DNA of 64,000 nt from Paludibacteraceae bacterium (lineage in GTDB: Bacteria > Bacteroidota > Bacteroidia > Bacteroidales > Paludibacteraceae). Below, in pieces: positions 8,377 to 33,356 of this stretch; position 1 is the first letter of the stretch, and every line of letters starts with the position of its first letter. The notes beneath the pieces were generated by a model. The model was not told the DNA's origin. It saw nothing but the letters and a program-made list of their open reading frames with translations, and made no database searches. The position numbers were made by a program, and so were the translations under genes. The stretch lies in contig JAFZKQ010000015.1 in the NCBI GenBank assembly GCA_017553575.1, forward strand, positions 1-64,000, given 5' to 3'.

Positions 8377-10797
8377 ATGGCACACAAGTTCACCGTACTT
8401 TTTTCAATGTTTCTTTTGGTTCTATGCAACAGCATGGAAGCCAAAAACATTTGGGTGACAGGTGACGTCATCGACCCTCAGGGTTCCCCCATGGAATTCG
8501 TGACTGTGATTGCCGTCGGGACAACCAACGGAGCCAACTCCGATAGCAACGGGAAATTCAAATTCCAAACCACAACCGACCGAGACAGCATCACCCTGAA
8601 ATTCTCCTATGTAGGATACATTACCAAAGAGGTATCAATACCGGCCAACAAAGACACCCTGCACATCCGCCAGAGGATGACGGAAGACAGCCAAGTAATG
8701 GAAGGCATCGAAGTCGTCGAGTTTGTCAAGCAAAAGAACTCTGTACAGACGTTGGATGTGGAAGGGCTAAAAGTGATGCCGAACGCCTCCGGTTCCGCCA
8801 TCGAGGCTCTAATCACCAGTCTACCGGGAGTCAGTTCCAACAATGAGCTCAGTTCACAATACTCCGTCAGAGGAGGAAACTACGACGAGAACATCGTCTA
8901 CGTCAATGACATTGAGGTGTATCGCCCCATGCTCATCCGTGCCGGACAACAAGAGGGACTCAGTTTCGTCAATCCAGACATGGTGGACGAGGTGAAATTC
9001 TCCTCGGGTGGATTCAGTGCCCAATACGGAGACAAAATGTCGTCCGTACTTGACATCCGCTACAAGAAGCCAACCCAATTCGAAGGGTCCGTAGCCGCCA
9101 GCCTCTTAGGAGCCTCCGCCTACATCGGTTCCTCCAGCAAGAAGTTCACGCAAGTCCACGGCATACGATACAAGACTTCCGCCTATCTCTTAGGCTCATT
9201 GGAGACAGAAGGCGAGTACGATCCGAATTTCTTCGACTACCAAACGTACATGACCTACGCCTTTACGCCTAAAGTCGAACTCTCTTTCCTCGGAAACTTC
9301 TCACGGAACGACTATCAGTTCCAACCAAGCAGCCGAGAGACCTCTTTCGGAACCATGACCAACATGAAATCGTTCGTCGTCTATTTCGACGGTCAGGAGA
9401 AAGACCTTTTCCAAACGCTTTTCGGTGCGTTGACACTCAATTATAGTCCTTCCAAAAACACCACGTTGGGCTTGATGGCCGCCTCCTTCAACACTTCGGA
9501 AAAGGAGACCTACGACATTGCCGGAGAGTACCGACTCGGCGACGTGGACGGAAGCAACACAACCACCACCAACCTCAGCGACGGCATCGGCAAATACCAA
9601 GAACACGCCAGAAACTATCTGGATGCCACCGTGACAAGCCTAACGCAGTTGGGAAGCTACAAATTCCTCTCCAACACCCTCAAATGGGGATTGACCTACC
9701 AACAGGAGGTCTTGAACGAGAAAGTGAACGAGTGGGAAATGCGAGATTCGGCAGGCTACTCCATCCCTACCCACGCAGACTATTTAGCACTCTACTACAA
9801 CACCAACGCAGAGAACGACCTGACAACCAACCGGTTCTTAGGCTATCTGCAAAACACCTACGAGAAAAAGACCTCCATCGGAAAGATTTCTCTCACAGGA
9901 GGTGTACGGGCCAACTACTGGGACTTCAACGAAGAGTTGCTGATCAGTCCACGTGCCTCCATCGCTTGGTTCCCGAACTGGGAGAAGAATTTCGGATTTC
10001 GATTGGCCACGGGACTCTATTACCAAGCCCCATTCTACAAAGAGATCCGAGACACCGTGACGAGCGAGAACGGCAACACAGAGGTCAGGCTGAACAAGAA
10101 CATAAAAGCACAACGCTCCTTCCAAATCCTGTTAGGAAGCGACTACTACTTCCGTTCGTGGAACAGGCCGTTCAAATTCACCGCCGAGGTCTACTACAAA
10201 TATCTGGACAGAATCAACCCTTATAGCGTAGACAACGTGAGAATCGTCTACGTCGGAGATAACTGTGCCGACGGTTACGCGGCCGGCATCGACATGAAGC
10301 TATTCGGAGAGTTCGTGCCCGGCACCGATTCCTGGATATCCCTCTCCCTCATGCAAACAGAGGAAGACATCTATGGAGACGGGAAAGGGAAGATCGCCCG
10401 TCCGACCGACCAACGCTACAACATCTCCTTCTTCTTCCAGGACTATATCCCCGGCTACTCAAGGTTGAAATTCAACCTGAAATTAGCGTGGGCAGACGGC
10501 CTTCCATTCGCACCGCCACACAGCCAACGTGCGGACTACGAATTCAGGACGCCCGACTATCGACGGGTGGACATCGGAGCCATCTACTCCTTGGAGAAAA
10601 ACAAGGACAAACTGTTCGAGAAGAGAGTTCTCTCTTGGGCAGAAAGGATCTCATTCAACGCCGAAGTGTTCAACCTCCTCGACATACGGAACGTCAACTC
10701 CTACTATTGGGTGACCGACGTCTCCAACATGCAGTATGCCGTACCGAACTATCTGACAGGAAGAAGGTTGAACTTCAAGATACAGATCGATTTTTAA
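8377..10797 (+). CDS. TonB-dependent receptor with CarboxypepD-like N-terminus
   Basis: Outer-membrane 22-strand-type transporter driven by TonB. The start at 8377 gives 806 residues and a clean signal peptide (MAHKFTVLFSMFLLVLCNSMEA). A start at 8200 would bury it 59 residues in and would put the promoter inside the gene. Parts: CarboxypepD regulatory-like domain (about 25-105, with the GxxSDSNGKF pattern); plug (about 125-250, with IEALITSLPGVSSN, SVRGGNYDENIVYVND and GGFSAQYGDKMSSVLDI); a beta-barrel; and a terminal Phe (QIDF). No SusD gene is adjacent, so this is not a standard SusC/D pair. The neighbouring mannanase, permease and kinase suggest an oligosaccharide ligand (inference). Spacing to the permease gene is only 24 bases. 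Confidence 0.88.
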   Translation: MAHKFTVLFSMFLLVLCNSMEAKNIWVTGDVIDPQGSPMEFVTVIAVGTTNGANSDSNGKFKFQTTTDRDSITLKFSYVGYITKEVSIPANKDTLHIRQRMTEDSQVMEGIEVVEFVKQKNSVQTLDVEGLKVMPNASGSAIEALITSLPGVSSNNELSSQYSVRGGNYDENIVYVNDIEVYRPMLIRAGQQEGLSFVNPDMVDEVKFSSGGFSAQYGDKMSSVLDIRYKKPTQFEGSVAASLLGASAYIGSSSKKFTQVHGIRYKTSAYLLGSLETEGEYDPNFFDYQTYMTYAFTPKVELSFLGNFSRNDYQFQPSSRETSFGTMTNMKSFVVYFDGQEKDLFQTLFGALTLNYSPSKNTTLGLMAASFNTSEKETYDIAGEYRLGDVDGSNTTTTNLSDGIGKYQEHARNYLDATVTSLTQLGSYKFLSNTLKWGLTYQQEVLNEKVNEWEMRDSAGYSIPTHADYLALYYNTNAENDLTTNRFLGYLQNTYEKKTSIGKISLTGGVRANYWDFNEELLISPRASIAWFPNWEKNFGFRLATGLYYQAPFYKEIRDTVTSENGNTEVRLNKNIKAQRSFQILLGSDYYFRSWNRPFKFTAEVYYKYLDRINPYSVDNVRIVYVGDNCADGYAAGIDMKLFGEFVPGTDSWISLSLMQTEEDIYGDGKGKIARPTDQRYNISFFFQDYIPGYSRLKFNLKLAWADGLPFAPPHSQRADYEFRTPDYRRVDIGAIYSLEKNKDKLFEKRVLSWAERISFNAEVFNLLDIRNVNSYYWVTDVSNMQYAVPNYLTGRRLNFKIQIDF

Positions 10798-10821
10798 GAA
10801 GAAAAGTTTAAAAGACACAAT

Positions 10822-12207
10822 ATGGAAGAAAGCAAAAAAGGGAACTATTTAGTTCCATTGGCCACACTGACCACCTTATTTTTCATGTGGGGATTCATCA
10901 CCTGCATGAACGACATTCTTATTCCCTACCTGAAAGGAGTTTTTCAACTAACCCATTTCCAATCTAACTTGGTGCAGTTCGCCTTCTTCGCGGCCTACTT
11001 CATCATATCCCTAATCTATTTCTGCATCTCCGCAACCATAGGAGACCCTATACGGAAGATTGGGCACAAGAACATGATTGGTAGCGGTCTGCTCATCTCG
11101 GCAACGGCCTGCTTCCTCTTCTTCGTAGAGGCAAAATCGGAAGAACCGACGTTCATCGTCTTTCTCTTCGCCCTCTTCCTCTTAGGTACGGGCTTCACCT
11201 TTCTGCAAATAGCGGCCAACCCCTTAGTGGCTCAGTTAGGAACGGCAGAGACCTCTTCCAGCCGTCTCAACCTCTCCCAAGCATTCAACTCGTTGGGAAC
11301 CACCTTGGCCCCTGTCATCGGAGGTTACTTCGTCTTCAAATATTTCGACGACGGTAGTCAAAGCGCCTCGGCAGTACAGATACCTTACCTGCTCTTGGCC
11401 AGCCTGCTATTCATCTTGGCAGGTATCATCTTCTTCGCAGAGATCCCGAACATAGAGACCGACGAAGAGGAGAAAGAGAATGATCCTATCGGAGCATTGA
11501 AACACCCCAACCTTGTATTCGGAATGATCGGCATCTTCTGCTACGTCGGAGGCGAGGTGACAATCGGAAGCAACTTGGTTTCCCTCATGAAGGAAGTACA
11601 CGGAATCGCAGAACTACAAGCGAGCAAACTGCTCTCCTTCTATTGGGGCGGTGCCATGATTGGACGTTTCATGGGTTCCATATCCATGAGTAAGCTAGAC
11701 AACAATCTCAAATATTTGTTGATGTTTTTGGCCGGAATAGGAGCCTACGGACTTATCTATTTCATCACCGGCATCAAATACGAGGAGACATTATACTTCC
11801 TGCTCTTCTTAGGACTCAACTTCCTCGTCTTCATCTTCGCGAAATCCGCTCCATCAAGGACGTTGGGACTATTTGCCATCGTAAACATGGCCCTCATCCT
11901 CATCATGCTCAACACACAAGGAATGGCCTCCCTTTGGACCATTCTCTCCGTGGGACTCTTCAACTCCATCATGTTCTCCAACGTCTTCACGTTGGGAATC
12001 CGCAACTTGGGGAAATACACCTCCCAAGGTTCGTCCCTATTGGTGATGATGATTTTGGGTGGAGCCGTCGTGCCACCATTGCAAGGCTTGTTGGCTGACA
12101 TTTTCAACCCACAATTGGCATTCGCCGTTCCTTTGGCATGCTACGCATATTTGGCATGGTACGGCTTCGTCGGATGCAAGCCCAAGAAAACAGTAGAGAA
12201 TCAATAA
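10822..12207 (+). CDS. sugar:H+ symporter, FucP/GluP-type MFS permease
   Basis: Imports a monosaccharide across the inner membrane. The 461-residue protein is almost wholly hydrophobic, with about 12 membrane spans. The opening FFMWGFITCMNDILIPYLK (about residues 14-32) is the hallmark of the fucose/glucose/galactose symporter family, as are GTGFTFLQIAANPLVAQLG (about 120) and FNSLGTTLAPVIGGYF (about 155). Family members carry fucose, glucose, galactose or N-acetylglucosamine; the ROK kinase 21 bases downstream suggests an unphosphorylated hexose such as glucose or mannose. The TonB receptor just upstream would supply sugar to the periplasm, so the three genes form a plausible uptake-and-capture operon. 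Confidence 0.9.
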   Translation: MEESKKGNYLVPLATLTTLFFMWGFITCMNDILIPYLKGVFQLTHFQSNLVQFAFFAAYFIISLIYFCISATIGDPIRKIGHKNMIGSGLLISATACFLFFVEAKSEEPTFIVFLFALFLLGTGFTFLQIAANPLVAQLGTAETSSSRLNLSQAFNSLGTTLAPVIGGYFVFKYFDDGSQSASAVQIPYLLLASLLFILAGIIFFAEIPNIETDEEEKENDPIGALKHPNLVFGMIGIFCYVGGEVTIGSNLVSLMKEVHGIAELQASKLLSFYWGGAMIGRFMGSISMSKLDNNLKYLLMFLAGIGAYGLIYFITGIKYEETLYFLLFLGLNFLVFIFAKSAPSRTLGLFAIVNMALILIMLNTQGMASLWTILSVGLFNSIMFSNVFTLGIRNLGKYTSQGSSLLVMMILGGAVVPPLQGLLADIFNPQLAFAVPLACYAYLAWYGFVGCKPKKTVENQ

Positions 12208-17989: not shown

Positions 17990-20900
17990 ATGAGAAACAG
18001 GCATTATCTCAGTTCGATTCATTTGTCTAAAGGGCAAAAGAGAGCGAAGAAAAGTTTCGCAACGTTGTTCATCACAGCATTGATGTCAATTTTCTACACG
18101 GGAATGCAGGCTCAAACCGTTTCCGTCCTAAAAAACAATAAGGTCACCATCTCGACAAAAAGCATCGACGAGTGTTCTTCCATCCTTGAGGTGTCTCTAT
18201 CCTCTTTCGAAGACGAATACTACTTCGACTTTTACATCACAGAAGATGGGGAAAAATTGACATCCTCCGACATTCGATTCGAAGGGGAGGCCACAGTATT
18301 CCAATTCAACGAGCACAACAACATCAAATTCGAGTCGGGCTCCTATAACGGACGTCCAACGACTTACTATTTGAACACTCGAAACGGGAAACCATATACG
18401 TTCTCGTCCGAAAAGCCGTCAATGGACGACGCTTATGTGCGAATCAACGGAAAAACAACTATCAATGAGGGCGAAAATGTGAGCTTCACAAGCCTCGTAT
18501 GCCCTTCTGCCGACGACTGCACATACCAATGGTACGAAGACGGAACAGCCATAGAGGGAGCTACTTCCTCATCACTTTCCGACCATACTCCAAAAACGGC
18601 GAAAAGCACTTACAAACTGGAAGTCAGCAAAAACGGCAGCCTTTTCAAGAGTGCCACGGTTTCCATCCGAACTTTAGGCAAAAACAAACGATTCGAGATT
18701 ACGCCTTGGTGGGGTATCTCTTCTTCTAAATTCACGGAAATTGCAGGATATTGCAACTCGCTCTACATGGTAGAGATGACATTCAACGGCAACGAGCCTC
18801 AATTCGCCCTCTCAAGCGATGGTGAGATAGTCAGCGAACTCGGTTCCGAATCTTCAATAAAAGTCGAGAAGAAGATGGGAGACGATGGAACAGCTGGTTG
18901 GAAAATCACCAACAGCGACATGGACGGCAAGTCCCTCACGTTCTATATCGACGCAAGGACTACCCCTATGAAGCTGACCGACAAGATTGAAGAGAAAGAA
19001 TTCTTCGTGCCTTCCATCCAAATAACCAAAGGAAGCCATAAGGTGGAACGTGGAGAAGCCATCTCCTTCGGTTCAGACATCTGTAAGAGTTCATCAAGCG
19101 AATTGACCTACCAATGGCAATACAGCACGAACAATGGTACATCATGGACAGCCATCGATGGAGGAACGAGCAGCGAACTAACCGATTATGTTGTTCCAGC
19201 AGACGGAACACAAGTTCGTCTAGTCGTTTCTAACGGCAGTTTCTCAAATGCCTCTGACCCAATCACCATTATTTACGCTCCATCCGAAATTGCTATCGAG
19301 ATTGAGCCAGCAGAGAAAATCAACGAGACGGAATTTGAAGTGCCAGTACACGAAATCGTCAACATGAAGGTTATCGCAGAACGAATGAGCGATGCCGTCA
19401 TCAGCGTAAAGGTTAAGGATTTCTCTTCCAACACATGGAAAGACACCACGTTTGGCACAGGCGATGTTTGGACTTTCGTGCCTAAAGAAAACTTGGTTTA
19501 CAAAATCACAGCAGATGGTACACTCAACAATACAAATGAGAAAGGTTCTATCACACGTGAATTCATCCTTCGTATCATTTACAAGTGCGACAAGAATGCC
19601 GCAACTGACGTATTGTGGCACGATGACTTCGGAAGCTTTACCGACGCAAGCACTTACGTAACGAAGGATGTTGACGAAGTTGAGCAAACACACTCAGGTA
19701 GCGTCACAGACGAGAACGGTAATGTATGCAACATCAGCAACTACATGTCCGCTGATCCGAACTTCTTCGTAAAGCAACACAATTTTGCAGGATTGGATCC
19801 ACTCTTCGGCCCTTACAGCTCTGACAACTGTGCTTCTGACGGTTATCAGCACTATGCATGTTGGGAAGATTGTAACGGTATCCGTGTAGAGGACGGCTAC
19901 TACGCCATCCTATCCAACCCGAATACTAGTAACTGTGGTAGAGAAGACCGTGACTATTGGGACGGTGGCGACCACACCGGCAACACGAACGGAGGTATGC
20001 TTTTCGTGAACTGTAGTAACGACAGTAAAGGAGCCATCATCTACGAACGAGAATTGACCCTCAGCAACGAATGTGACAACGTTCAACTTTTGTTCTCTGC
20101 CTTCATCAGCAACGCTGCCGTTAAGGAAGGACAAAAGCCAGTGAATGTCCGTCTTGACATTCTCGACGAGAACAAGACTCTTGTCCACTCCGTTGCATCT
20201 GGCGATGTCATGCCACGTACGACAGGAGAGAAATGGTCAAACATGACATTCCAGTTCAAATCAACAGGAAAGAAGAAATACATCATCCAATTGACGAACA
20301 ACAATCCAGGTGGTGCAGCCAACTACGGTAACGATATTTTGTTGGACGACATCTCCATCACCATCTGCTACCCTAACGTCAAACTGATTGCAGACCTTGC
20401 AGACAAGACCAAGGACGTTATCGAGACTTGTCAATTGGACACGACCATCAAATTGTATGCCTTCAACGAAATAGGCATCAAGAACTACATTGATGAGCCA
20501 GTATACCTTTTCCAATACAAGAAAGCTGACAAACCAGATTCGCCATGGCAAGACATCGAAACAGCAGGAGAAGGCATCCACATGACTGACATCGACAACA
20601 TCGCAATAAAGTTGGATCGTGACGACGCACGCTTCTTCGGAACAACCAAGTTCAGAGCCATCGTAGCTTCCAGCAAAGAGGTTTTGACACAAATCATCGA
20701 AGAAGAAGACACGACAGGCAAGATTACGATGACAGTCGACTGCGACCACGTATATGCGATAGACTCGGCGTTCACCGTCATCTTCCACTACAGCGGTCCA
20801 ATGGGTCCAGACATCGATACAGCAGGCTGTATCAAAGAGGTCATGACCATCATCGGTGGATCCTCTGATAAACCTATGTTCAAATGGTTAAATGCAGAGG

Positions 20901-23900
20901 ACAGCACACTTATTTCCGAAGGAGAGAAATCTTTGACTTTCGATATCGATGGAACCAAAGACGATTACTACTACTTCTTCGTCGGAACCGAGGAATTAGG
21001 CTGTACAGACACTCAAAAAGTACACGTAAGGAAGAAAGAGAATGTTTGGTTCGACGCACCTAAGGAATTCGTAGTCTGCGAATTCGACTCGGCCGTGACC
21101 TTGACAGACATTGTCCTCAAAAACGGAGCTGCAGGTCTAAAGCCTACTTTCACTTGGGAACTTAACGGAGAGGTCGATGCCACTCAAACAGGAAGCAAAT
21201 TCAAGATTCCTGAGACGGCTCCATTGGAAGGAGACATCAAGGTAACAGGATCTGCAGAAGGCTTCTGTGACTCAACAAGAACGATTAAGTATACCATCCA
21301 CAAAAAGTACGAATTGAAACTTGACACGGATGTGGAAGACGATCGTTTGTGTTTCAACACAACCAACAACACAGTCAAATTGACCGCAACATTCAAGCCT
21401 GAGACTGCACGTCCAAACAAATTCTATTGGTATAACAATGGGGTATTTGTCGGAGAGAGTGACGGGCCTGAATACCAAATCAGCATCACGGAAAATGGCA
21501 AATACAAATTCACGGTGAAATCGACGGACGACATCTGCTACAAAGACACAGCAGATTCAAAAACGCCGGTCCAAGTAGACTCCATTTCCGCAAGCCGTTC
21601 CATGGACATGGAAGTCAAGACCGTTCCAGAGAACGCAATTATCTGTGAAGGCGAATCCATCCAATTCAACCTAAAAATAGGAAATGCGTTGGATGACAAA
21701 GATGCGACTTGGGAGTGTGACGATTTCGAGGGTGGAAAGAAAGAGACCAAGACAGAAAACTTCTTGAGCAGCGTAACCATCACGCCAACCAAGACTAATG
21801 ATTTCACAGAGAATCGAATAATGAGTGTCAAAATCTATGATGAGATCTGTGGTAAAGACATCAAGGTGAAGACCGAGTATGAGGTTCACAACAAAATCAA
21901 GCTTAGCATCGACCCTATCGACACCTATTGCTTAAGCGCAGGCGATAAGATCGACTTGACGGCTACTGTGATTTCTGGTGTTCCAACAAAGTATGTATGG
22001 TTGGAAGGAGAGACAAGACTCGACTCAACAGCGGACAACCAAGCGAAAATCACCATCAAGGAGGGTTCAAACAACTACTCCGTGATTGCAAGTGATGACG
22101 TATGTGAAAGCAAGACATCCGATGTCATGACGACGGAAGCCCGTCAACCAATCACAATTGACATCATGCCAAAGGATACCGTCTTCTGTGAAGGAACGAC
22201 AATCACTTTCCGTGCTACCATCGAAAATGCGTTGGACAAAGTGAACGTACCAGTTATCTGGTCTGGCGATGACCTCGCAAAAGACTCAACCATCAAGGGT
22301 GAGCGATGCACATTGACCCTCACGCCAGCCAAGAGCAACGTAAAGACTGAACAACGTAGCATCACCATCAGCACGGCCGATGAGGTCTGTGGTCAAGGTG
22401 GATTTGTGAAATCAGAAACGACCTACTCCATCCACAACAAGATGGACATTGCCATCGAGGCAGACCGTACCGACGGACTCTTCTGTTTGACAGACAAAGG
22501 TGGCAACGACCAAATCAATTTGAAGGTCAACGTGAAAGCAGGAGAGCCAACTCTTTACAATTGGTATAAAGACGAGCAAGCCCTAGGTTCTGCTCTCAAA
22601 GGCGACACGGCCTTGACGATTGGCGAAGGCTCCAACCAATACAAAGTCGTCGCAAGTGACGGCATTTGTAACGACACAAGTTCAGTCGTCTTCCCTATCA
22701 AGGCAAGACATCAATTGGGATTGGATTTGAATCCGAAGAATGCCAGCATCTGTGAAGGCGAAGAGATTAAATTGACGGCTACCCTTACCGATGTCTTAAA
22801 CGACGACATCACCGTATCTTGGGAAGGTGACGACATTGCCGAAGGTTCAACAACCTCAGGCAACCCATCCTCTTACACGGTGACTACGACCAAGACAGAC
22901 AACAAGAAACAAGTCGGAAAAGCAACCATTAAAGCAACAGACGCTGTCTGCCTCCGCGACACCGTGGTAAGCGTTGAATACAACGTCTTCATGAAGGTTG
23001 ACATTCAATTAGTCTCTGACATTGCAGGCGGCCGAATCTGTAAAAAAGATCCGAACAGCAGCAAGGCAACCCTTACCATCAAGGTCAAGAAGGGAGATCC
23101 AAACAGCTTCATCTGGAATGACGGAAAGATTTGCGCTGGCAACGACACCATAAGAACGATCGAATTGACAGAAGGAACCAACACCTTCTCTGTCAGTGCA
23201 ACCGACGATGTCTGCAACAAGAAAGATGTATCGGAAGCAATCGCCAACAACTCAATTGAGACACGCGAGCCAATCGAGGTCGATTTGTTCTTGGACAACA
23301 GTTTGGTCTGCATCGGAAACCAAATCAAGGCTACGGCATCCATCAAGAACAGCCACGAAGGAGCAACCTCCGTCATCAAGTGGTCTGACGGTCAGACAGT
23401 CAGCAACGCTTCAAACGGAGAGCATTCCGAGTCATTCACGCCAAGCGTAGGTTCTCAAAGCATCAACGTCAGCGTAGTAGATGCAAAATCCGACATCTGT
23501 CCTGCGACAGTAAAGGGTGCTGTCATCTCTGCTCAAGACTCACTCCGCTTGTTCATCACTCCTAGTCAAGAGACACTCTGTCAAAGGGCAGACACTACCC
23601 AATACATCAAGTTGACGGTAGGAATCAAGACAGGATGGCCAAGCAACGTGGTATGGTCTACTGGAGATACGACAAGAATCGACACAACAAACACGACTCA
23701 CATTCTCGTAGGTCCTAACACGAACACCGTTTATTGGGCATACGGAACTGACAACATCTGTAAGAACTCGGATAAGATTTACACAAAAGAGATCCAAGTT
23801 TCCAACAAACTCCAAGTGGAAGTGGAGATCGAGAAGCCAGAATTCCAAATGGGCGAAGAGGTCAACTTGATCGCAAACCTCTCTAACGACGAATACAACA

Positions 23901-24328
23901 CCATCAAATGGTACAACACGGAGACAGGCGAGTTCTTAGGCGAGACCAGCGACAATCGATTCACCTACCAACTCAAGGATGACGCTTACGGAATATTCAA
24001 ATTCGGCGTAGTAGTCGACAACATGTATTGTGGCGACATCACTTCAGGAAAGAGGAAGATTACCGTGGCTGACTACACTGAAGTTCCTAACATCATCACT
24101 CCATACAACAGCAATGGAAAGAACGATGTGTTCATGGGACCAAAAGATGGCAAGCCTGGTTACAAGGTAGAGATTTACAACCGTTACCAACAACTGATCT
24201 TCGAAGGTGACGAAGGTTGGGACGGCATCTACAGAGGCTATATGGCAGAGCCAGGAACCTATTTCTATAGAGTTCACATGAAAGATGGTCGCGTTTTCAA
24301 AGGAACGCTTGAAGTCGCTAAATTCTAA
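17990..24328 (+). CDS. giant T9SS type B cargo protein with tandem Ig-like modules
   Basis: Cell-surface or secreted adhesin-like protein of 2112 residues. A long-n-region signal peptide ends near MQAQ (about residue 42). Next come Ig-like domains (about 140-220 and 345-425; both have the TYQW core), a Cys-rich jelly-roll-like section around 540-790, and five tandem double modules of 181-189 residues starting near 1024, 1213, 1394, 1582 and 1768. Each module opens with a variant of ICEGExI and has a second half with a FxW/YxW core and DDxC. The final 85 residues (VPNIITPYNSNGKNDVF...TYFYRVHMKDG...) form the gliding-motility C-terminal domain that marks T9SS type B substrates. OmpA-like and PorP/SprF genes follow at 35 and 17 bases, the usual partners for tethering such cargo. 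No enzymatic motif was found. Confidence 0.88.
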   Translation: MRNRHYLSSIHLSKGQKRAKKSFATLFITALMSIFYTGMQAQTVSVLKNNKVTISTKSIDECSSILEVSLSSFEDEYYFDFYITEDGEKLTSSDIRFEGEATVFQFNEHNNIKFESGSYNGRPTTYYLNTRNGKPYTFSSEKPSMDDAYVRINGKTTINEGENVSFTSLVCPSADDCTYQWYEDGTAIEGATSSSLSDHTPKTAKSTYKLEVSKNGSLFKSATVSIRTLGKNKRFEITPWWGISSSKFTEIAGYCNSLYMVEMTFNGNEPQFALSSDGEIVSELGSESSIKVEKKMGDDGTAGWKITNSDMDGKSLTFYIDARTTPMKLTDKIEEKEFFVPSIQITKGSHKVERGEAISFGSDICKSSSSELTYQWQYSTNNGTSWTAIDGGTSSELTDYVVPADGTQVRLVVSNGSFSNASDPITIIYAPSEIAIEIEPAEKINETEFEVPVHEIVNMKVIAERMSDAVISVKVKDFSSNTWKDTTFGTGDVWTFVPKENLVYKITADGTLNNTNEKGSITREFILRIIYKCDKNAATDVLWHDDFGSFTDASTYVTKDVDEVEQTHSGSVTDENGNVCNISNYMSADPNFFVKQHNFAGLDPLFGPYSSDNCASDGYQHYACWEDCNGIRVEDGYYAILSNPNTSNCGREDRDYWDGGDHTGNTNGGMLFVNCSNDSKGAIIYERELTLSNECDNVQLLFSAFISNAAVKEGQKPVNVRLDILDENKTLVHSVASGDVMPRTTGEKWSNMTFQFKSTGKKKYIIQLTNNNPGGAANYGNDILLDDISITICYPNVKLIADLADKTKDVIETCQLDTTIKLYAFNEIGIKNYIDEPVYLFQYKKADKPDSPWQDIETAGEGIHMTDIDNIAIKLDRDDARFFGTTKFRAIVASSKEVLTQIIEEEDTTGKITMTVDCDHVYAIDSAFTVIFHYSGPMGPDIDTAGCIKEVMTIIGGSSDKPMFKWLNAEDSTLISEGEKSLTFDIDGTKDDYYYFFVGTEELGCTDTQKVHVRKKENVWFDAPKEFVVCEFDSAVTLTDIVLKNGAAGLKPTFTWELNGEVDATQTGSKFKIPETAPLEGDIKVTGSAEGFCDSTRTIKYTIHKKYELKLDTDVEDDRLCFNTTNNTVKLTATFKPETARPNKFYWYNNGVFVGESDGPEYQISITENGKYKFTVKSTDDICYKDTADSKTPVQVDSISASRSMDMEVKTVPENAIICEGESIQFNLKIGNALDDKDATWECDDFEGGKKETKTENFLSSVTITPTKTNDFTENRIMSVKIYDEICGKDIKVKTEYEVHNKIKLSIDPIDTYCLSAGDKIDLTATVISGVPTKYVWLEGETRLDSTADNQAKITIKEGSNNYSVIASDDVCESKTSDVMTTEARQPITIDIMPKDTVFCEGTTITFRATIENALDKVNVPVIWSGDDLAKDSTIKGERCTLTLTPAKSNVKTEQRSITISTADEVCGQGGFVKSETTYSIHNKMDIAIEADRTDGLFCLTDKGGNDQINLKVNVKAGEPTLYNWYKDEQALGSALKGDTALTIGEGSNQYKVVASDGICNDTSSVVFPIKARHQLGLDLNPKNASICEGEEIKLTATLTDVLNDDITVSWEGDDIAEGSTTSGNPSSYTVTTTKTDNKKQVGKATIKATDAVCLRDTVVSVEYNVFMKVDIQLVSDIAGGRICKKDPNSSKATLTIKVKKGDPNSFIWNDGKICAGNDTIRTIELTEGTNTFSVSATDDVCNKKDVSEAIANNSIETREPIEVDLFLDNSLVCIGNQIKATASIKNSHEGATSVIKWSDGQTVSNASNGEHSESFTPSVGSQSINVSVVDAKSDICPATVKGAVISAQDSLRLFITPSQETLCQRADTTQYIKLTVGIKTGWPSNVVWSTGDTTRIDTTNTTHILVGPNTNTVYWAYGTDNICKNSDKIYTKEIQVSNKLQVEVEIEKPEFQMGEEVNLIANLSNDEYNTIKWYNTETGEFLGETSDNRFTYQLKDDAYGIFKFGVVVDNMYCGDITSGKRKITVADYTEVPNIITPYNSNGKNDVFMGPKDGKPGYKVEIYNRYQQLIFEGDEGWDGIYRGYMAEPGTYFYRVHMKDGRVFKGTLEVAKF

Positions 24329-24363
24329 AAAAAGAATAAGGAATCCATGTAAATAAAAGAAAC

Positions 24364-25656
24364 ATGAGAAAATTAATTTATATCGTGATGATGATTGCGT
24401 TGATTCATAACATCAACGCCTCTGAAGACAAGTTCAGCGAGGGAAAATTTGAATTCATCTCGTCTAACAAGAACACGAGAGCAGAAGAATGTCCAATGTC
24501 CCCTTACCGCAAAGGATCCATCGTATTCTTCAGAAACGACACCGCATATATGTTCTATCCAAGAATGGACTTGGAATTGGATACCCCTATCGTATGCACC
24601 GAACTGATGGGATTGGACATCCAAGGAACTTTTGCTTACGACAAGAACGCCAACAAACTCTACTTCTCCAAAAACGACGGAGCAGGGAATTATGAATTGT
24701 ACGAGGCAAGTTATTCCGGCAACAGATGGATTGACGTGAAGAAACTGAAGATCAAAGGTGTGATGCCAAGCAAAATGGTCATCAAAGGTTCCTCCCTCGC
24801 CGCAGGACGTTGGAACCACACGGTAAGAGGTACGACAGGATTCTTTAACCCTTCTATCGGAAGAGGTGGAAAGCGACTCTACTTCTCGGGAACCTTCTTG
24901 GCAGGAAAAGGAAATAGAGACCTTTGGTATATTGATGCCGAAAGCGACGGACTTTGGAGCCGTCCGAAGAGTCTCGGAGACTCCATCAACACGGAAGCGA
25001 AAGAGGACTTCGCCTATGTTGTCGGAGATACGGCTCTCTACTTTGCATCCACGAAAGAGGGTGGTTTCGGTGACATGGATATCTACGTATCCCACAAAAG
25101 CCGTAAAGACACCGTATGGGGTGCTCCTGAAAACTTAGGAGACCACATCAACTCCTCCGCTTCCGACTACAACGTAGCATTCAACAAAGTTTCCGCCTAC
25201 TTCATCTCCAACAGAGCAAGCGGCAAAGGAAGGGCCGACATCTATCGCCCTATCTGGATCCACCCTGCCAGAGAGAAAGAGTTGGTTGCGAACATGACCA
25301 TAGAGGAGCCTAAGGGATTCAATTGGGTACTCTTCTTCTTCGACTTCAACATGACCTCCATGAAACCAGAATATGAGGCCCAAGTAGACGAGTTGGTCTC
25401 TGCCATGAAGGAGTTCCCTGGAGGAAGATTTGAGATCAGCGGACACACCGACTCACGTGGTTCTGAAGACTACAACAAGAAACTCTCCCAGAAACGTGCC
25501 GAATACATCAAAGACATGTTGTCGAAGAGAGGCATCCCATTCGAGAATTTGATTGCGGTGGGACGAGGCATGAGCGAGCCTGTCATTCCTGATGCAAAAG
25601 AGGAGGCAGAGCACGAGCAGAACAGACGTGTAGACATCAAGATTATTAACGAATAA
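24364..25656 (+). CDS. OmpA-family protein with PD40-type repeats
   Basis: Likely periplasmic or outer-membrane protein that binds peptidoglycan and links the T9SS cargo or PorP partner to the wall. In 430 residues: a signal peptide (about 1-20), a WD40-like beta-propeller section with PD40 patterns (FNPSIGRGGKRLYFSGTF and ALYFASTKEGGFGDMDIY, about 155-300), and a C-terminal OmpA domain from FDFNMTSMKP (Phe326) through SGHTDSRGSEDYNKKLSQKR to NRRVDIKI. The Asp/Arg pair of the diaminopimelate-binding pocket is present in the GHTDSRG and NRRVDI motifs. No lipobox Cys is seen, unlike PorE of Porphyromonas, so anchoring may rely on partners. Sits between the adhesin and PorP genes in one operon. 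Confidence 0.87.
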   Translation: MRKLIYIVMMIALIHNINASEDKFSEGKFEFISSNKNTRAEECPMSPYRKGSIVFFRNDTAYMFYPRMDLELDTPIVCTELMGLDIQGTFAYDKNANKLYFSKNDGAGNYELYEASYSGNRWIDVKKLKIKGVMPSKMVIKGSSLAAGRWNHTVRGTTGFFNPSIGRGGKRLYFSGTFLAGKGNRDLWYIDAESDGLWSRPKSLGDSINTEAKEDFAYVVGDTALYFASTKEGGFGDMDIYVSHKSRKDTVWGAPENLGDHINSSASDYNVAFNKVSAYFISNRASGKGRADIYRPIWIHPAREKELVANMTIEEPKGFNWVLFFFDFNMTSMKPEYEAQVDELVSAMKEFPGGRFEISGHTDSRGSEDYNKKLSQKRAEYIKDMLSKRGIPFENLIAVGRGMSEPVIPDAKEEAEHEQNRRVDIKIINE

Positions 25657-25673
25657 CAAGAGGAGACTGCATA

Positions 25674-26597
25674 ATGAAAAGAATACTGGCACTTATTTGC
25701 CTTATGATGATGGGAGTTGCCACACAAGCGCAACAAGATTTGCTTTTGTCTCAACAATTCTATTCCCGTATCAACAAGAACCCTGCGGGAACAGGTAACG
25801 TGCCCGATTACGACTTTTTCCTATTGGGGCATTACCAATACATTGACGTAAAAGATGCGCCAAAGTCACTCGTATTCAACTTCCAATCATTCATGGAACA
25901 ATACAATTCCGGTATCGGCTTCTCCCTCTCCTACGACAATATGGGTGTGGCAAAGAGCACGACCAACGCAAAAGCCGTATATGCTTATAGCTTGAAATTA
26001 AACGAGACCGCACTTCTCTCCTTCGGTCTGTCAGCAGGTATTCAATACGGCTATTTCAATGCAGCGGAATACACCTATGAAGATTACTCCGAGGTGACGG
26101 ACGGTGAGGCTCCAAACGAGAAGATGACCAAGCTGAATCCTGACTTCGACTTCGGTTTCGAGTTCTCTACGCCAAGATTCCTATTCGGTGCATCTGTCAC
26201 CCACTTGAATAACAACGAATCAACTACGCTCACAGCAGGCCGGCACTTCTATGCCTACACCCGCTATATGTTCACGTTGAACGACACTTGGGATGTTGCA
26301 CCAGCACTCGTCTATATGCACAAAGATTTGATTGACGTGACGGAGTTGAGTGCGACAGCCTTCTACAACAGATTCATCTGGGGAGGCTTGACCTACCATC
26401 CAGACATCAATTCCAGTTTTGAGTCCAACCCTGTGGCCGTATCCTTGGGCGTTGAATACCGTTCTTTCCGTCTAGGCTATGTATTTGACTATGCATTCGG
26501 AAAAGTATCGAGACTCTCTGGAACTTCTCACGAACTGATGTTCTCCTACTCTTTGGAGAACAAGCGCAAATCAGTTGTTTACGAGAAATTCGAATAA
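25674..26597 (+). CDS. PorP/SprF-family T9SS membrane protein
   Basis: Outer-membrane barrel of the PorP/SprF family. Members are encoded beside type B cargo and help secrete it or hold it on the cell surface. The 307 residues start with a signal peptide ending TQAQQD, followed at once by the family opening LLLSQQFYSRINKNPAGTG. The remainder alternates in the way of transmembrane beta-strands: SGIGFSLSYDNMG, AVYAYSLKLNETALLSFGLS, FLFGASVTHLNNNES and VAVSLGVEYRSFRLGYVFDY. Last gene of the three-gene unit, 17 bases after the OmpA-like gene, with a strong terminator behind. The pairing with the giant adhesin suggests that this copy is dedicated to it rather than being the core PorP. Confidence 0.9.
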   Translation: MKRILALICLMMMGVATQAQQDLLLSQQFYSRINKNPAGTGNVPDYDFFLLGHYQYIDVKDAPKSLVFNFQSFMEQYNSGIGFSLSYDNMGVAKSTTNAKAVYAYSLKLNETALLSFGLSAGIQYGYFNAAEYTYEDYSEVTDGEAPNEKMTKLNPDFDFGFEFSTPRFLFGASVTHLNNNESTTLTAGRHFYAYTRYMFTLNDTWDVAPALVYMHKDLIDVTELSATAFYNRFIWGGLTYHPDINSSFESNPVAVSLGVEYRSFRLGYVFDYAFGKVSRLSGTSHELMFSYSLENKRKSVVYEKFE

Positions 26598-26660: not shown

Positions 26661-26760
26661 TAACGTCCCTTTCAATGAACATTTCCCTGAACATTTGCGG
26701 AAAGAGGAGAAATGCGAATACATTCCCTCGGAATGTGTAACGAGACAGGCACCGAGGTGC

Positions 26761-26905
26761 TACCTTTGTATCAAAGAAAGGACAACGGCTAACGTTGTTG
26801 GTCACTATCAAGTATAAATGTTTACAATTGCCTTTAATCGTCTATCTGAGAAGAAGAGTAAGGGGGGAGACAAAGTCCGAAAGGAACGTCTCCCTTTCTT
26901 ATTTT
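26761..26905 (+). ncRNA. candidate small RNA 1
   Basis: A compact transcription unit without a protein frame. It has the -7 element TACCTTTG (26761-26768), a hairpin ACAACG-GCTAA-CGTTGT (26782-26798), the core GGTCACTAT (26800-26808) followed by AAGTATAAATGTTT (26810-26823), and a terminator pairing 26865-26871 with 26888-26894 (GGGAGAC) closed inside by TCC-GAAA-GGA and followed by a T-rich tract. The predicted RNA is about 130 nt, from near 26775. The same order of parts recurs in candidate 2. No known RNA family is recognised from memory. It might alternatively be an attenuated leader of lost genes. Confidence 0.55.
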
Positions 26906-27221
26906 TGAGTGAAGCCAACGAATAATGAGCCATATAAAATCCCCAAAAACGACAGAGCGAGAAATCACCCATTTTACAAGCGAAATCACCCCACAATAAG
27001 AGCAAAAAAACAAGTGAACAAGTCATTTTTCTCCTTCACACGAATGTTTTTCTCCTTTTAGTCCCCAATGCGGCAAAATGCCCATTTCATCGAAAAAAGA
27101 GATTTCATTCAACCGAAAACCAAGCAGAAAAAAAGATTAACATTCCACTTAACAATAGAGGAAAAAAGGAAGATGTTAAGCATTTAAATCAACTTGTGAA
27201 TCCCAACAAGAGAAAGCCCAA
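26906..27221. other. AT-rich spacer between the two candidate small RNAs
   Basis: About 316 bases, rich in A-runs, with no open frame that resembles a protein and no strong hairpin. I see nothing further here. Confidence 0.4.
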
Positions 27222-27375
27222 TACATTTGCAATGAAAGAAGGACGATAGCAATCGTCATTCGGTCACTATTCAAATATAAGTGTTTTATGGTTCAAACAT
27301 CTATCGGAAATCGATCTAATTAACCCAAACCGACAAAATCTACTCAAAGGGGACCATTGGGTTCCCTTTTTTTAT
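27222..27375 (+). ncRNA. candidate small RNA 2
   Basis: Built like candidate 1. The -7 element is TACATTTG (27222-27229), followed by the hairpin GACGAT-AGCA-ATCGTC (27242-27257), the core CGGTCACTAT (27261-27270) and AAATATAAGTGTTTT (27273-27287). A terminator has arms AAGGGGACC (27347-27355) and GGTTCCCTT (27360-27368) with one G-U pair, ending in TTTTTTT. The stretch between the -7 element and the hairpin also aligns with candidate 1 (both carry GAAAG or AAAGAAAGGAC-like sequence ending GGAC). Changes in the hairpin stem keep pairing, which favours selection on RNA structure. Predicted RNA about 140 nt. Confidence 0.55.
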
Positions 27376-27403
27376 TGTTTTGAAAAAATCTTCCTTATAT
27401 TTG
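27375..27403 (+). promoter_or_regulatory. promoter of the AraC-type regulator gene
   Basis: TTG at 27375-27377, 18 bases, then TATATTTG at 27396-27403 (exact -7 consensus), 23 bases before the ATG. The gene is therefore likely transcribed separately from the small-RNA unit just upstream. Confidence 0.6.
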
Positions 27404-27426: not shown

Positions 27427-28536
27427 ATGTCCAAAAAGAAAATACTATATATAATATTAATCCTTCTTCCGGTTATCCTATTTACCATACTATATACTCT
27501 CATCAGGAAACCAACCATCAACGTCTTGGAGGATGAGAACTTCCGTCTCGAGATGTGGGAGGAACCTATGGCAAAAGGATTGGCTACGACAGGACTCATT
27601 TGGCACAAAGAGGGCGTGAAATTTCAGTTCACCCTCTCCGACTCTTTGCCCTACCCCTATGCAGGACTTAGCGTCATGGACAAGCGGGATTCACTCTTCT
27701 CCTTGACCGATTACGAACTTCAGATCAAGGTAAAAAGCAAGGAGAACATTCCTCTAATCGTCCGAATCAACAAATTCATTGAGAACTATACGGACAAGAA
27801 TAAATGGGACACCTATCTTCTCTGTTCCAAGACCAAAAGCCTAAGTAAAGGAGAGAACGAGATCCAACTGAAGGTGAAAGATATTGACGAGACCCCTAAC
27901 TGGTGGTACTCCATCAACAAGGCTTGGGCCATGAAAGGTTTCCAGACCGACAAAGCGGAAATCGGAGAACTGACCTTGGTCTTCGAGAACGGCGTTCCGG
28001 TCGGAAGAGAGATTGAGTTGGACTTCGAAGAGTTCAAGATAGTCTATGACCAAAGCGGACTCCTTCCTTACGTCATCTTCATATTCCTCTACTACATTGC
28101 TTTGACCATTCTCTATTTCGTAAAGAAATCCAAAGTCAACGGAGAGGTGAAATATGTCGTCGTGCCTATCAAAGAGACGGAGACAAAGGGAGAGAAAGAT
28201 TCTCAAAAAGATGTAGAGATCGTCTCCTACATCGGGGAGAACTATCCGAATCCCGATTTCAAAATCAGCGACGTGGCCAACCACTTCAACTTGACGGAAA
28301 ACGAGGTTGCCGACCTACTAAAAGAGTATTGTGACAAGACATTCCGACAATACCTCAACCAAATAAGAATGGAAGAGGCTAAACGACTTTTGAAAGAGAG
28401 CAAGCAACAAATTTCAAGCATTGCCTTCTCCGTCGGCTACAACAACGTCCAACATTTCAACCGCGTATTCAAAGAATACACAGGCGTCTCTCCTACGATC
28501 TTCAAAAGCGGCAAAGAGGAAGAAAAGGAGGAATGA
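27427..28536 (+). CDS. membrane-spanning AraC-family regulator
   Basis: One-chain sensor and transcription factor of 369 residues. A first membrane segment (ILYIILILLPVILFTILYTL, about 5-25) is followed by a periplasmic domain (about 30-210) with alternating beta-strand pattern and several Trp residues (WHKEGVKFQF, DETPNWWYSINKAW). It resembles a jelly-roll sugar-binding fold, but I cannot name the family. A second membrane span (about 213-235) leads to a charged linker and the AraC DNA-binding domain (about 270-366), with IRMEEAKRLLKESKQQISSI and AFSVGYNNVQHFNRVFKEYTG, the classic second helix-turn-helix. No kinase or receiver domain is present, so it differs from the hybrid two-component systems of polysaccharide loci. 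Target genes are unknown; neighbouring TonB receptor and GH9 genes are candidates. Confidence 0.85.
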   Translation: MSKKKILYIILILLPVILFTILYTLIRKPTINVLEDENFRLEMWEEPMAKGLATTGLIWHKEGVKFQFTLSDSLPYPYAGLSVMDKRDSLFSLTDYELQIKVKSKENIPLIVRINKFIENYTDKNKWDTYLLCSKTKSLSKGENEIQLKVKDIDETPNWWYSINKAWAMKGFQTDKAEIGELTLVFENGVPVGREIELDFEEFKIVYDQSGLLPYVIFIFLYYIALTILYFVKKSKVNGEVKYVVVPIKETETKGEKDSQKDVEIVSYIGENYPNPDFKISDVANHFNLTENEVADLLKEYCDKTFRQYLNQIRMEEAKRLLKESKQQISSIAFSVGYNNVQHFNRVFKEYTGVSPTIFKSGKEEEKEE

Positions 28537-31508: not shown

Positions 31509-33356
31509 ATGGTAAAATTAAAGTATTCTGTATTGGGTTCCTTGGTCAGTGTTTTCTGTTGCAACACATTCGCTCAAAATGAGCCTGCATTCGACAAGGA
31601 ACAGTATCAAAAGGCGTTGTGGATGACCACACGTTTCTATGGTGCCCAGCGTATGGGCGAAGGCGTCAATTGGCTCGTCGAGACACACGAGGCCAACAAC
31701 GTATCCGCTAACATCAATTTCGACCGAAGCAAATTCGTGCAAGGGAAATCCTTTCTGAAGGATTATGACGGAGACTACGACCTGCGCGGAGGATGGGCTG
31801 ATTGTGGAGACTTTGTGCTCTTCGGACAAACATTCTTCTACTCTGCTTACATGTTGGTGCTAGGTTATAACGCCTTCCCCGAGGGTTATCCAGACTTCTA
31901 CTCGGAAGACTACCACGGATATGTCAACTCAGACGATTACACTTGGGAAGGAAAACAAGGTGTGCCAGACGGCATTCCTGACATCTTGAACGAGGTGAAA
32001 TATGCCACAGACTTCATCTTGAAGGCTGTTCGTGACAATCGTACCTTCTACTACCAAAAGGGAGATGGAGACGTGGACCACAAGGTGTGGTGCACCTCAA
32101 CGGTCAAATCAGCTCTCCCAAAAAGTTTGGGAGGAGAAGCGGACGGTTCCCGTATGATCTTGAAAGCGACAGGAAATGCCACTGCCATGGCTTCACAAGC
32201 TGCATCCGCACTTGCCGCAATGGCGCGCGCATACGCTAAATACGATGCGGATTACGCTGCCGCCTGCATAGAGAAGGCTAAGGTGGCCTGCGAATTCGTG
32301 GAAAACACCCAAAAGGGAACCACCAAGGCTGCATATTATCCAGTAGAAGACCGCTACATTCACGACATGGTCTCCATGTACGTGGAACTCTACAAGACGA
32401 CTAAAGATCCTGAGTACTTAAAAAAGGCAGAGGAGAATTGTTCCTGGATGGATAATGAGAAGTCGTACAACTACAACTATAGTCTTTGCTACGACCATAG
32501 AGAAGACCTCGCAGCCTACAATATGGCATCCCTTGGCGATGAATCATCTTACGGGGGAAAAGCGCTCGATGTCTTGAAATTCTACGCGACCACCATGTAC
32601 ATTCCTAATTCCGGCTACTTCTTGAACAAACTACCAGGAAAGAGTTGGGGTGGCGAGCCATGGGGCGTGCTCCGTTTCCCATGTAATCAAGCTTTTGTCC
32701 GCGCACTATACGACAAACTAACAGGCGAGGAAACTATCAGCCCGTACATCACAACCACTATAGACTATATGATGGGCCACAACGGAAAGAACTTCTCTTA
32801 CATTGTGGGATTCGGAGACAAATATCCAGCCTACGCCCATCACAGAAACCTATACAGAACCGATATCAATGATTTGGAGAAAGAGACGGACAAATTGCCG
32901 AAGATAGACAACAATTACAAGTTCGCCCAATTGGGTTACCTAGTCGGAGGTTCTCGAAACGACGGAGATTACAATGACGATATCAACAATTACTCAGGTA
33001 CAGAAGGTGGTATCGACTACAATGCAGGATTGGTCGGCGCCTTGGGCTACATCAACTCCAAGATGAACCCAGTTCCAGAGACAGAAACTTCAGTGGAAAC
33101 GGTCACAAAAGAGGAGATGGCCTGCGTTTTGGGTCCAAACCCAGCAGAAGACCACCTGAACATCTACTTCGGCGGAAAACCTGAGGGAAAGACGACGATA
33201 GAAGTAATCGACATGATGGGAAGCCTCTGCATAAGCAATGCAGTTTCGGGCAAATCCATCCACACCATCAATTTGGAAGGTCTCAACAAAGGCATATACC
33301 TTGTACGAATCATCTCAGGCAACGAGACCATCACAAAACAGTTCATCAAGAAATAA
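31509..33356 (+). CDS. secreted GH9 endoglucanase with T9SS type A tail
   Basis: Predicted to cleave beta-1,4-glucan (cellulose or mixed-linkage glucan) by inversion, outside the cell. The 615 residues comprise a signal peptide (1-22, ending NTFAQ), the GH9 (alpha/alpha)6 barrel (about 28-520) and a type A sorting domain (about 540-615, VLGPNPAEDHLNIYFGG ... NKGIYLVRIISG ... QFIKK). GGWADCGDF holds Asp98 and Asp101, matching the paired Asp of the GH9 DAGD motif, with Cys in place of the usual Ala. The proton donor fits Glu499 in TEGGIDYNAG. No N-terminal Ig-like domain or CBM is present, so it is the minimal architecture. Stands alone between terminators. Confidence 0.9.
   Translation: MVKLKYSVLGSLVSVFCCNTFAQNEPAFDKEQYQKALWMTTRFYGAQRMGEGVNWLVETHEANNVSANINFDRSKFVQGKSFLKDYDGDYDLRGGWADCGDFVLFGQTFFYSAYMLVLGYNAFPEGYPDFYSEDYHGYVNSDDYTWEGKQGVPDGIPDILNEVKYATDFILKAVRDNRTFYYQKGDGDVDHKVWCTSTVKSALPKSLGGEADGSRMILKATGNATAMASQAASALAAMARAYAKYDADYAAACIEKAKVACEFVENTQKGTTKAAYYPVEDRYIHDMVSMYVELYKTTKDPEYLKKAEENCSWMDNEKSYNYNYSLCYDHREDLAAYNMASLGDESSYGGKALDVLKFYATTMYIPNSGYFLNKLPGKSWGGEPWGVLRFPCNQAFVRALYDKLTGEETISPYITTTIDYMMGHNGKNFSYIVGFGDKYPAYAHHRNLYRTDINDLEKETDKLPKIDNNYKFAQLGYLVGGSRNDGDYNDDINNYSGTEGGIDYNAGLVGALGYINSKMNPVPETETSVETVTKEEMACVLGPNPAEDHLNIYFGGKPEGKTTIEVIDMMGSLCISNAVSGKSIHTINLEGLNKGIYLVRIISGNETITKQFIKK

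Follow-up and report, generated by a model that had tools for sequence, protein, structure and literature searches.

Tandem small RNA units beside an AraC-type regulator gene of a Paludibacteraceae genome as putative sponges of a second small RNA family of inverted homology

The small RNA (sRNA) units a and b, which lie in tandem upstream of the gene of a membrane-bound AraC-family regulator, closely match, as reverse complements, a second and more widespread sRNA family of the same genome, which is trans-encoded and termed c. Hence, they are probably decoys that soak up c. Sequence comparison lends good support to a and b being two independent sRNA genes of one paralogous, genus-specific family as opposed to leaders. 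That they are anti-sRNA sponges of the c copies c1 and c4, born by inversion and perhaps driven by AraC, is held to be moderately probable. Herein, the transcription of a and b, the duplex in the cell, the titration, the control by AraC, and mRNA targets of c are steps that we infer. If true, the system would be a specific, predicted example of an sRNA and its anti-sRNA, including the exact sites of pairing, from a phylum that is dominant in the breakdown of polysaccharides in the gut, and it suggests a one-step origin of an anti-sRNA through inversion of a copied target.

The window, meaning the whole stretch of 64,000 nucleotides that was analyzed, belongs to a Paludibacteraceae (Bacteroidales) MAG of an uncultured gut bacterium with a genome of 3.39 Mb. 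The comparison set consists of 61 genomes, four of which are of the own genus (G000–G003; genus g1) and 57 of which are outside relatives. A covariance-model screen covered 358 genomes of the family with the stricter filters of a search of that size, by which weak homologues could be missed. The own genus is represented by four genomes of a single genus, partly fragmented MAGs, and all predictions are made from sequence.

Both units are encoded on the plus strand. Unit a is a predicted sRNA of ~135 nt (26773–26907) and unit b one of ~140 nt (27235–27373), and both are conserved in four genomes, each with a promoter and a terminator of its own. The predicted RNAs share the order purine stretch, short hairpin, GGTCACTAT, AAGTATAAATGTTT in a or AAATATAAGTGTTTT in b, variable part, and terminator. 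The sequence GGAC is located at 26780 in a and at 27241 in b. The 5′ hairpin of a (26781–26799) is formed by the stem GACAACG/CGTTGTT and that of b (27242–27257) by the stem GACGAT/ATCGTC; in the RNA, the a stem (GACAACG/CGUUGUU) is separated by 0 to 1 nt from GGUC and the b stem (GACGAU/AUCGUC) by 4 nt. GGTCACTAT is identical in both units (at 26800 in a and 27262 in b). In a, the pairing core GGTCACTAT C AAGTATAAATGTTT spans 26800–26823, with the AAGTATAAATGTTT segment at 26810–26823, and is complementary to the cores of c4 and c1. The counterpart of this segment in b is AAATATAAGTGTTTT at 27273–27287, which lies within an invariant core of 67 nt (27259–27325; 67/67 positions identical in four genomes), of which 27262–27287 is complementary to c. 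The terminator of a (26863–26906) is a GC hairpin with a T-rich tail, and b has a separate one at 27347–27373. Single-sequence folding energies are moderately below those of shuffles (z of −3.0 and −1.9) and are not used as support.

A preceding sequence-only reading had described these tandem units, and all the elements it listed are present at their positions. In the genome of 3.39 Mb, the a/b signature has exactly two occurrences, and the b version of the combination GGTCACTAT..TATAARTG has 0.00 expected occurrences in shuffles of the window. A scan of all genome contigs returned only the 10 copies of the genus and two chance matches within coding sequence. The same reading had taken the stem bases that differ between a and b, and still pair, as compensatory changes. 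This difference is not compensatory in itself because the two stems sit in different register. A few true double changes do exist between copies and species: in the RNAalifold analysis of all copies, two pairs of the a hairpin are changed on both sides, and one pair of the b hairpin is so changed in G003, with G-C replaced by U-A in a and by A-U in b. The argument is weak in its original form and holds modestly between species. The claim that no protein frame is shared was borne out, since an encoded peptide was considered and rejected: the core of the extra G002 copy of b contains a 1-nt insertion and several a-type frames run into immediate stops, which excludes a conserved peptide. A known Rfam family was likewise rejected, as the a/b loci stay below every gathering threshold of release 15, in line with the initial impression that no named family matches.

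The −7 elements, TACCTTTG for a (26761–26768, plus strand) and TACATTTG for b (27222–27229, plus strand), follow the pattern TAnnTTTG in all 10 copies known from the genus. Starting from TAnnTTTG, the 10 promoters align without gaps and contain TKAACAT at −85 and −73, aTGtkAA at −49, and aTGTGaA at −28. On the plus strand of the window, these half-sites correspond to TGAACAT (26676), TGAACAT (26688), ATGCGAA (26712), and ATGTGTA (26733) upstream of a, together spanning 26676–26739, and to TTAACAT (27137), TTAACAA (27149), ATGTTAA (27173), and TTGTGAA (27194) upstream of b (27137–27200), where the spacing to the −7 element equals that of unit a and of the other genomes. The common architecture thereby reaches back ~85 bp from the −7 element, a part that the sequence-only reading lacks. 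The two proximal half-sites repeat directly at a distance of 21 bp (type a has variants of them), and the TKAACAT pair is oppositely oriented. Direct repeats with this spacing are typical of AraC-family sites. Direct repeats at about this distance beside the −7 region are found in all 10 copies, an arrangement that fits other regulator families too. When the genome was searched with a loose TTAACAT direct repeat, the b site was the sole match with zero mismatches, and a reversed-pattern control gave equal numbers of one-mismatch matches. A further motif, GCCCATTTCATCGAAAA, is present once in this window (27080–27096) and is intergenic, often 100 to 200 bp before these sRNA promoters (L002, L003, L016 at 845, L018 at 1179, and L051); it recurs in several genera and also in other places of the genome.

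The 10 copies of a and b are distributed over all four genomes of the genus, with both types in each of the three others. Extra copies include a third, tandem a-type unit in G003 and a further b-type unit on another contig in G002. Each copy shows the −7 element, the half-sites at fixed distances, the 5′ hairpin, GGTCACTAT, and its own terminator, so the assignment as paralogous sRNAs of 130 to 140 nt is well supported by the comparison. Four species agree at all 67 nt of the b core, as compared with 34 to 65% identity at the 4-fold sites of AraC. With own promoter, intrinsic terminator, conserved core, and no conserved frame, a and b have, at the level of sequence, what defines trans-encoded sRNA genes. 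Outside the genus, no credible copy was found among the 57 relatives, where one 37-bp match in G033 looks like chance, and the covariance search of related genomes, which had been proposed along with the initial reading, found the a/b copies confined to the own genus among the 358 family genomes under the stricter filters named above; its one weak extra match is a c unit on the reverse strand.

Family c comprises four tandem trans-encoded genes (c1–c4) in an array that lies upstream of an RlmL-like methyltransferase gene in 4/4 genomes of the genus, in each of them on a contig other than the one with a and b. In G000, the array (L133) is located on the minus strand of contig C1 at about 9778–11090; the further arrays are L134, L135, and L136. 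In G000 and G003, a queA-like gene precedes the array. Each c unit contains a −7-like element and a strong terminator. The c core is AAACATTTATACTTTAAATAGTGACC, and the family, beside the rlmL-like gene, is marked by TTTCGTTCTCAGGAAACATTTATACTTTAAATAG plus the terminator hairpin. The 18 c sequences from g1, g4, g5, and g27 that were aligned agree in all 16 nt of AAACATTTATACTTTA, and in five pairs of the terminator stem both partners have changed. Family c is found in 28 of the 358 family genomes and in five genera (g19 weakly): all four genomes of the own genus with four copies each, 16 of g27 (loci L142–L157), one of g4, one of g5, and six weak matches in g19. In g27, a c copy precedes the same rlmL-like gene as in the own genus. 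None of the c sequences reached an Rfam threshold; the nearest family is BTnc231 (RF04180) for c3, with 30.0 and 20.2 bits as compared with a threshold of 80.4. Family c represents an undescribed sRNA family with a 16-nt core that is invariant across four genera. A phage origin was considered and rejected, as the exact 21-nt c core was not found on viral contigs. Further c-like copies are a c3-like one at G002:C8:31071 and a degenerate one at G000:C23:2211. The c-like element of g19 (L189–L194) consists of TATACTTTTTAAATAG and the same CTCTGTGAAGAG hairpin and lies between phosphate-permease-like and superoxide-dismutase-like genes; unit c1 of G002 sits behind a superoxide-dismutase-like gene.

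The relation between the two families is visible both as complementarity and as inverted homology. The c4 core AAACATTTATACTT-TAA-ATAGTGACC and the core of a are complementary over 9 and 14 consecutive base pairs around a 1 × 3 internal loop. Changes in the pairing segments are mostly G·U-tolerant, namely ATAGTGGCC in c1 of three genomes, AGGTATAA in copy G3x, and AAGTG in b, and the pairing segment of b contains one A·C mismatch. When the cores, trimmed of their terminators, are ranked by duplex energy among 3106 genomic windows of equal length, a:c1 and a:c4 occupy ranks 0 to 17 and b:c1 and b:c4 ranks 2 to 5; the pairing of the outer copies c2 and c3 is mostly not above background in this ranking. 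At full length, the duplex of G0a and G0c1 has −73 kcal/mol, as compared with −34 ± 4.5 for shuffles. The complementarity of a and b to the conserved core of c is thus conserved and above background, as is expected of an anti-sRNA. Among the exact complements of GGTCACTAT in the four genomes, the c sites are the only intergenic ones common to all four. In predicted structures, the pairing segments are moderately accessible.

Moreover, the reverse complement of c1 and c4 can be aligned with a and b across the A run, the hairpin, and the core, and therefore the terminator hairpin of c corresponds to the 5′ hairpin of a and b. A covariance model of c, run over 71 kb, gave 10 matches (E of 0.04–0.75 each), which are exactly the a/b units, every one of them hit in antisense orientation; a model of a/b, run over 51 kb, gave eight matches (E of 4e-5 to 0.008), which are exactly the c1/c4 units and likewise without exception antisense. 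Each of these reciprocal matches is modest, and jointly they are hard to explain by chance. Because, in the genomes searched, c occurs without a and b, and a and b never without c, a and b would most simply be derived, inverted copies of c.

For the mechanism, it is proposed that the a/b core GGUCACUAU..AAGUAUAAAUGUUU would pair with the c core AAACAUUUAUACUU(UAA)AUAGUGACC and that this pairing would titrate or destabilize the c sRNAs. The family most likely originated as an inverted copy of a c gene, whereby the old terminator hairpin would have become the 5′ hairpin of a and b. Their transcription would probably be switched by a regulator bound to the fixed array of upstream half-sites, for which the adjacent membrane-bound AraC protein with its carbohydrate-binding-module-like sensor is the leading candidate. 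The A·C mismatch in its pairing segment and an invariant 3′ half outside the part complementary to c suggest that b may have some additional role. The wider scenario is possible and put forward tentatively: an inverted duplication of the older Bacteroidales family c, with its terminator hairpin and seed put to use again in reverse, would have created a genus-specific anti-sRNA family of two to three copies beside an AraC regulator with a CBM-like sensor, and in response to a glycan, RNA titration would set the c regulon free.

Several other readings of a and b have to be weighed against the sponge. They may be ordinary trans-acting sRNAs that act on mRNAs, with the complementarity to c being a relic of the inverted origin and having no present role. 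In favor of this, the 3′ half of the b core is invariant beyond what pairing with c explains, and one complement site is located 9 bp before a start codon (L074 in G000). However, inspection of all non-self sites with an exact GGTCACTAT complement gave none 5′ of the same gene in 4/4 genomes, while the c sites are kept in all, and the changes in the pairing segments mostly preserve pairing by G·U; this reading is unlikely, if still of appreciable weight. The roles could also be reversed, with the AraC-controlled a and b being the regulators and the c array being their sponge or buffer. Pairing is symmetrical and c is present in four copies, as such an arrangement would have it, but c is found in four other genera where no a or b was found and must therefore have another function there, which renders a reversal distinctly unlikely.

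Two further readings concern the transcript itself. If the functional transcript were the minus strand, a and b would be degenerate c genes. Their minus strand does align to the c model, and the b core on the minus strand (27273–27281) contains TATATTTG, a perfect Bacteroidota −7 element that is possibly there by chance. Against this, the directions of transcription are opposite: T tracts follow the c hairpins, and none follow the a/b hairpins on the minus strand, where CCTTTCTTTGAT replaces TTTTTTT. Type a has no minus-strand −7 element, and the plus-strand promoter, the conserved upstream sites, and the terminator exist in 10/10 copies, so that this reading is very improbable. The sequence-only reading had also offered a conserved attenuated leader, in this case of the AraC gene, and b indeed lies directly upstream of that gene on the same strand in four genomes. 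It is rejected, with next to no probability remaining, because the AraC gene has a separate −7 element, TATATTTG (27396–27403, plus strand), which is kept 3′ of the b terminator in 4/4 genomes; hence, leader and gene would not form one transcript free of further promoters, and a and b are taken as independent genes. In addition, no gene lies directly behind unit a, the third copy in G003, or the extra b copy in G002, and in two g19 genomes a gene intervenes between an analogous RNA unit and AraC.

The proposed sponges resemble known systems in part. AgvB of Escherichia coli O157 antagonizes the trans-encoded sRNA GcvB by pairing with its seed region; it is phage-encoded, has 51 to 60 nt, and matches the seed consensus alone (PMC4104026). 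As is proposed for a and b, which are known from sequence alone, it is a small RNA directed against a trans-encoded sRNA. Unlike AgvB, a and b have 130 to 145 nt, are chromosomal and multi-copy, and are homologous, as reverse complements, to the core and hairpin of their presumed target. OmrA and OmrB are tandem sibling sRNAs (reviewed in PMC4211561), and like a and b, they are adjacent paralogues with a common 5′ part, a diverged remainder, and shared promoter sites. They differ in having no sequence relation to a and b, which have the pairing core in common, whose best conserved complement is another sRNA family, and for which control by a single regulator is presumed. Hence, a and b are homologous to neither AgvB nor the tandem sibling sRNAs. 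The Bacteroides sRNAs BTnc231 (RF04180) and BTnc201 (RF04177; PMC7366714) are, like a and b, intergenic Bacteroidales sRNAs with promoter and intrinsic terminator, yet do not match them. What is unusual is that an sRNA family and its presumed sponge, encoded in trans, are homologous as reverse complements; no precedent for this was found in the open-access literature, a search that counts as weak evidence. No described sRNA sponge of the Bacteroidota was found in that literature either, where absence is not proof. Sponges of sRNAs are known mainly from Proteobacteria.

The AraC-family regulator (27427–28536, plus strand; HTH_18/HTH_AraC) adjoins the units in 4/4 genomes, and it is by this neighborhood alone the natural, leading candidate for the activator of a and b. 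Its HTH_18 domain lies behind predicted membrane helices, and its sensor domain, as modeled with modest confidence (mean pLDDT of 59.5), resembles CBM11, CBM30, and CBM4. In the sister genus g19, a homologue of this AraC (about 33–36% identity) has a conserved RNA unit upstream in 8/9 genomes, which, read by eye, contains a similar-looking repeat pair. The unit (L051 at about 1060–1390; also L046, L048, L050, L052, L053, L058, and L059) is conserved in its 3′ 65 nt (TGTGTTAGATTGAGTATATTTAGGCATCATTGGCCGTGAGGTTAATGATG), which can fold as a hairpin with a 12-nt loop. It has no sequence relation to a and b, and as a distant sponge it was rejected, because its duplex ranks of 917 to 1397 and alignment ranks of 414 to 619 among 1576 are not significant versus the g19 c-like element. 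Thus, the linkage of AraC and RNA may be general and the sponge function not.

On the other side of the sRNAs lies a type IX secretion-linked operon (17990–26597) that encodes a 2112-aa protein with a CHU_C domain, an OmpA-family protein, and PorP/SprF; it adjoins the sRNAs in G000 and G001, is 2.5 kb off in G003, and is absent there in G002. Near the AraC gene, 31509–33356 encodes what looks, by its sequence, like a cellulase of the GH9 type that has a sorting-like tail at its C terminus.
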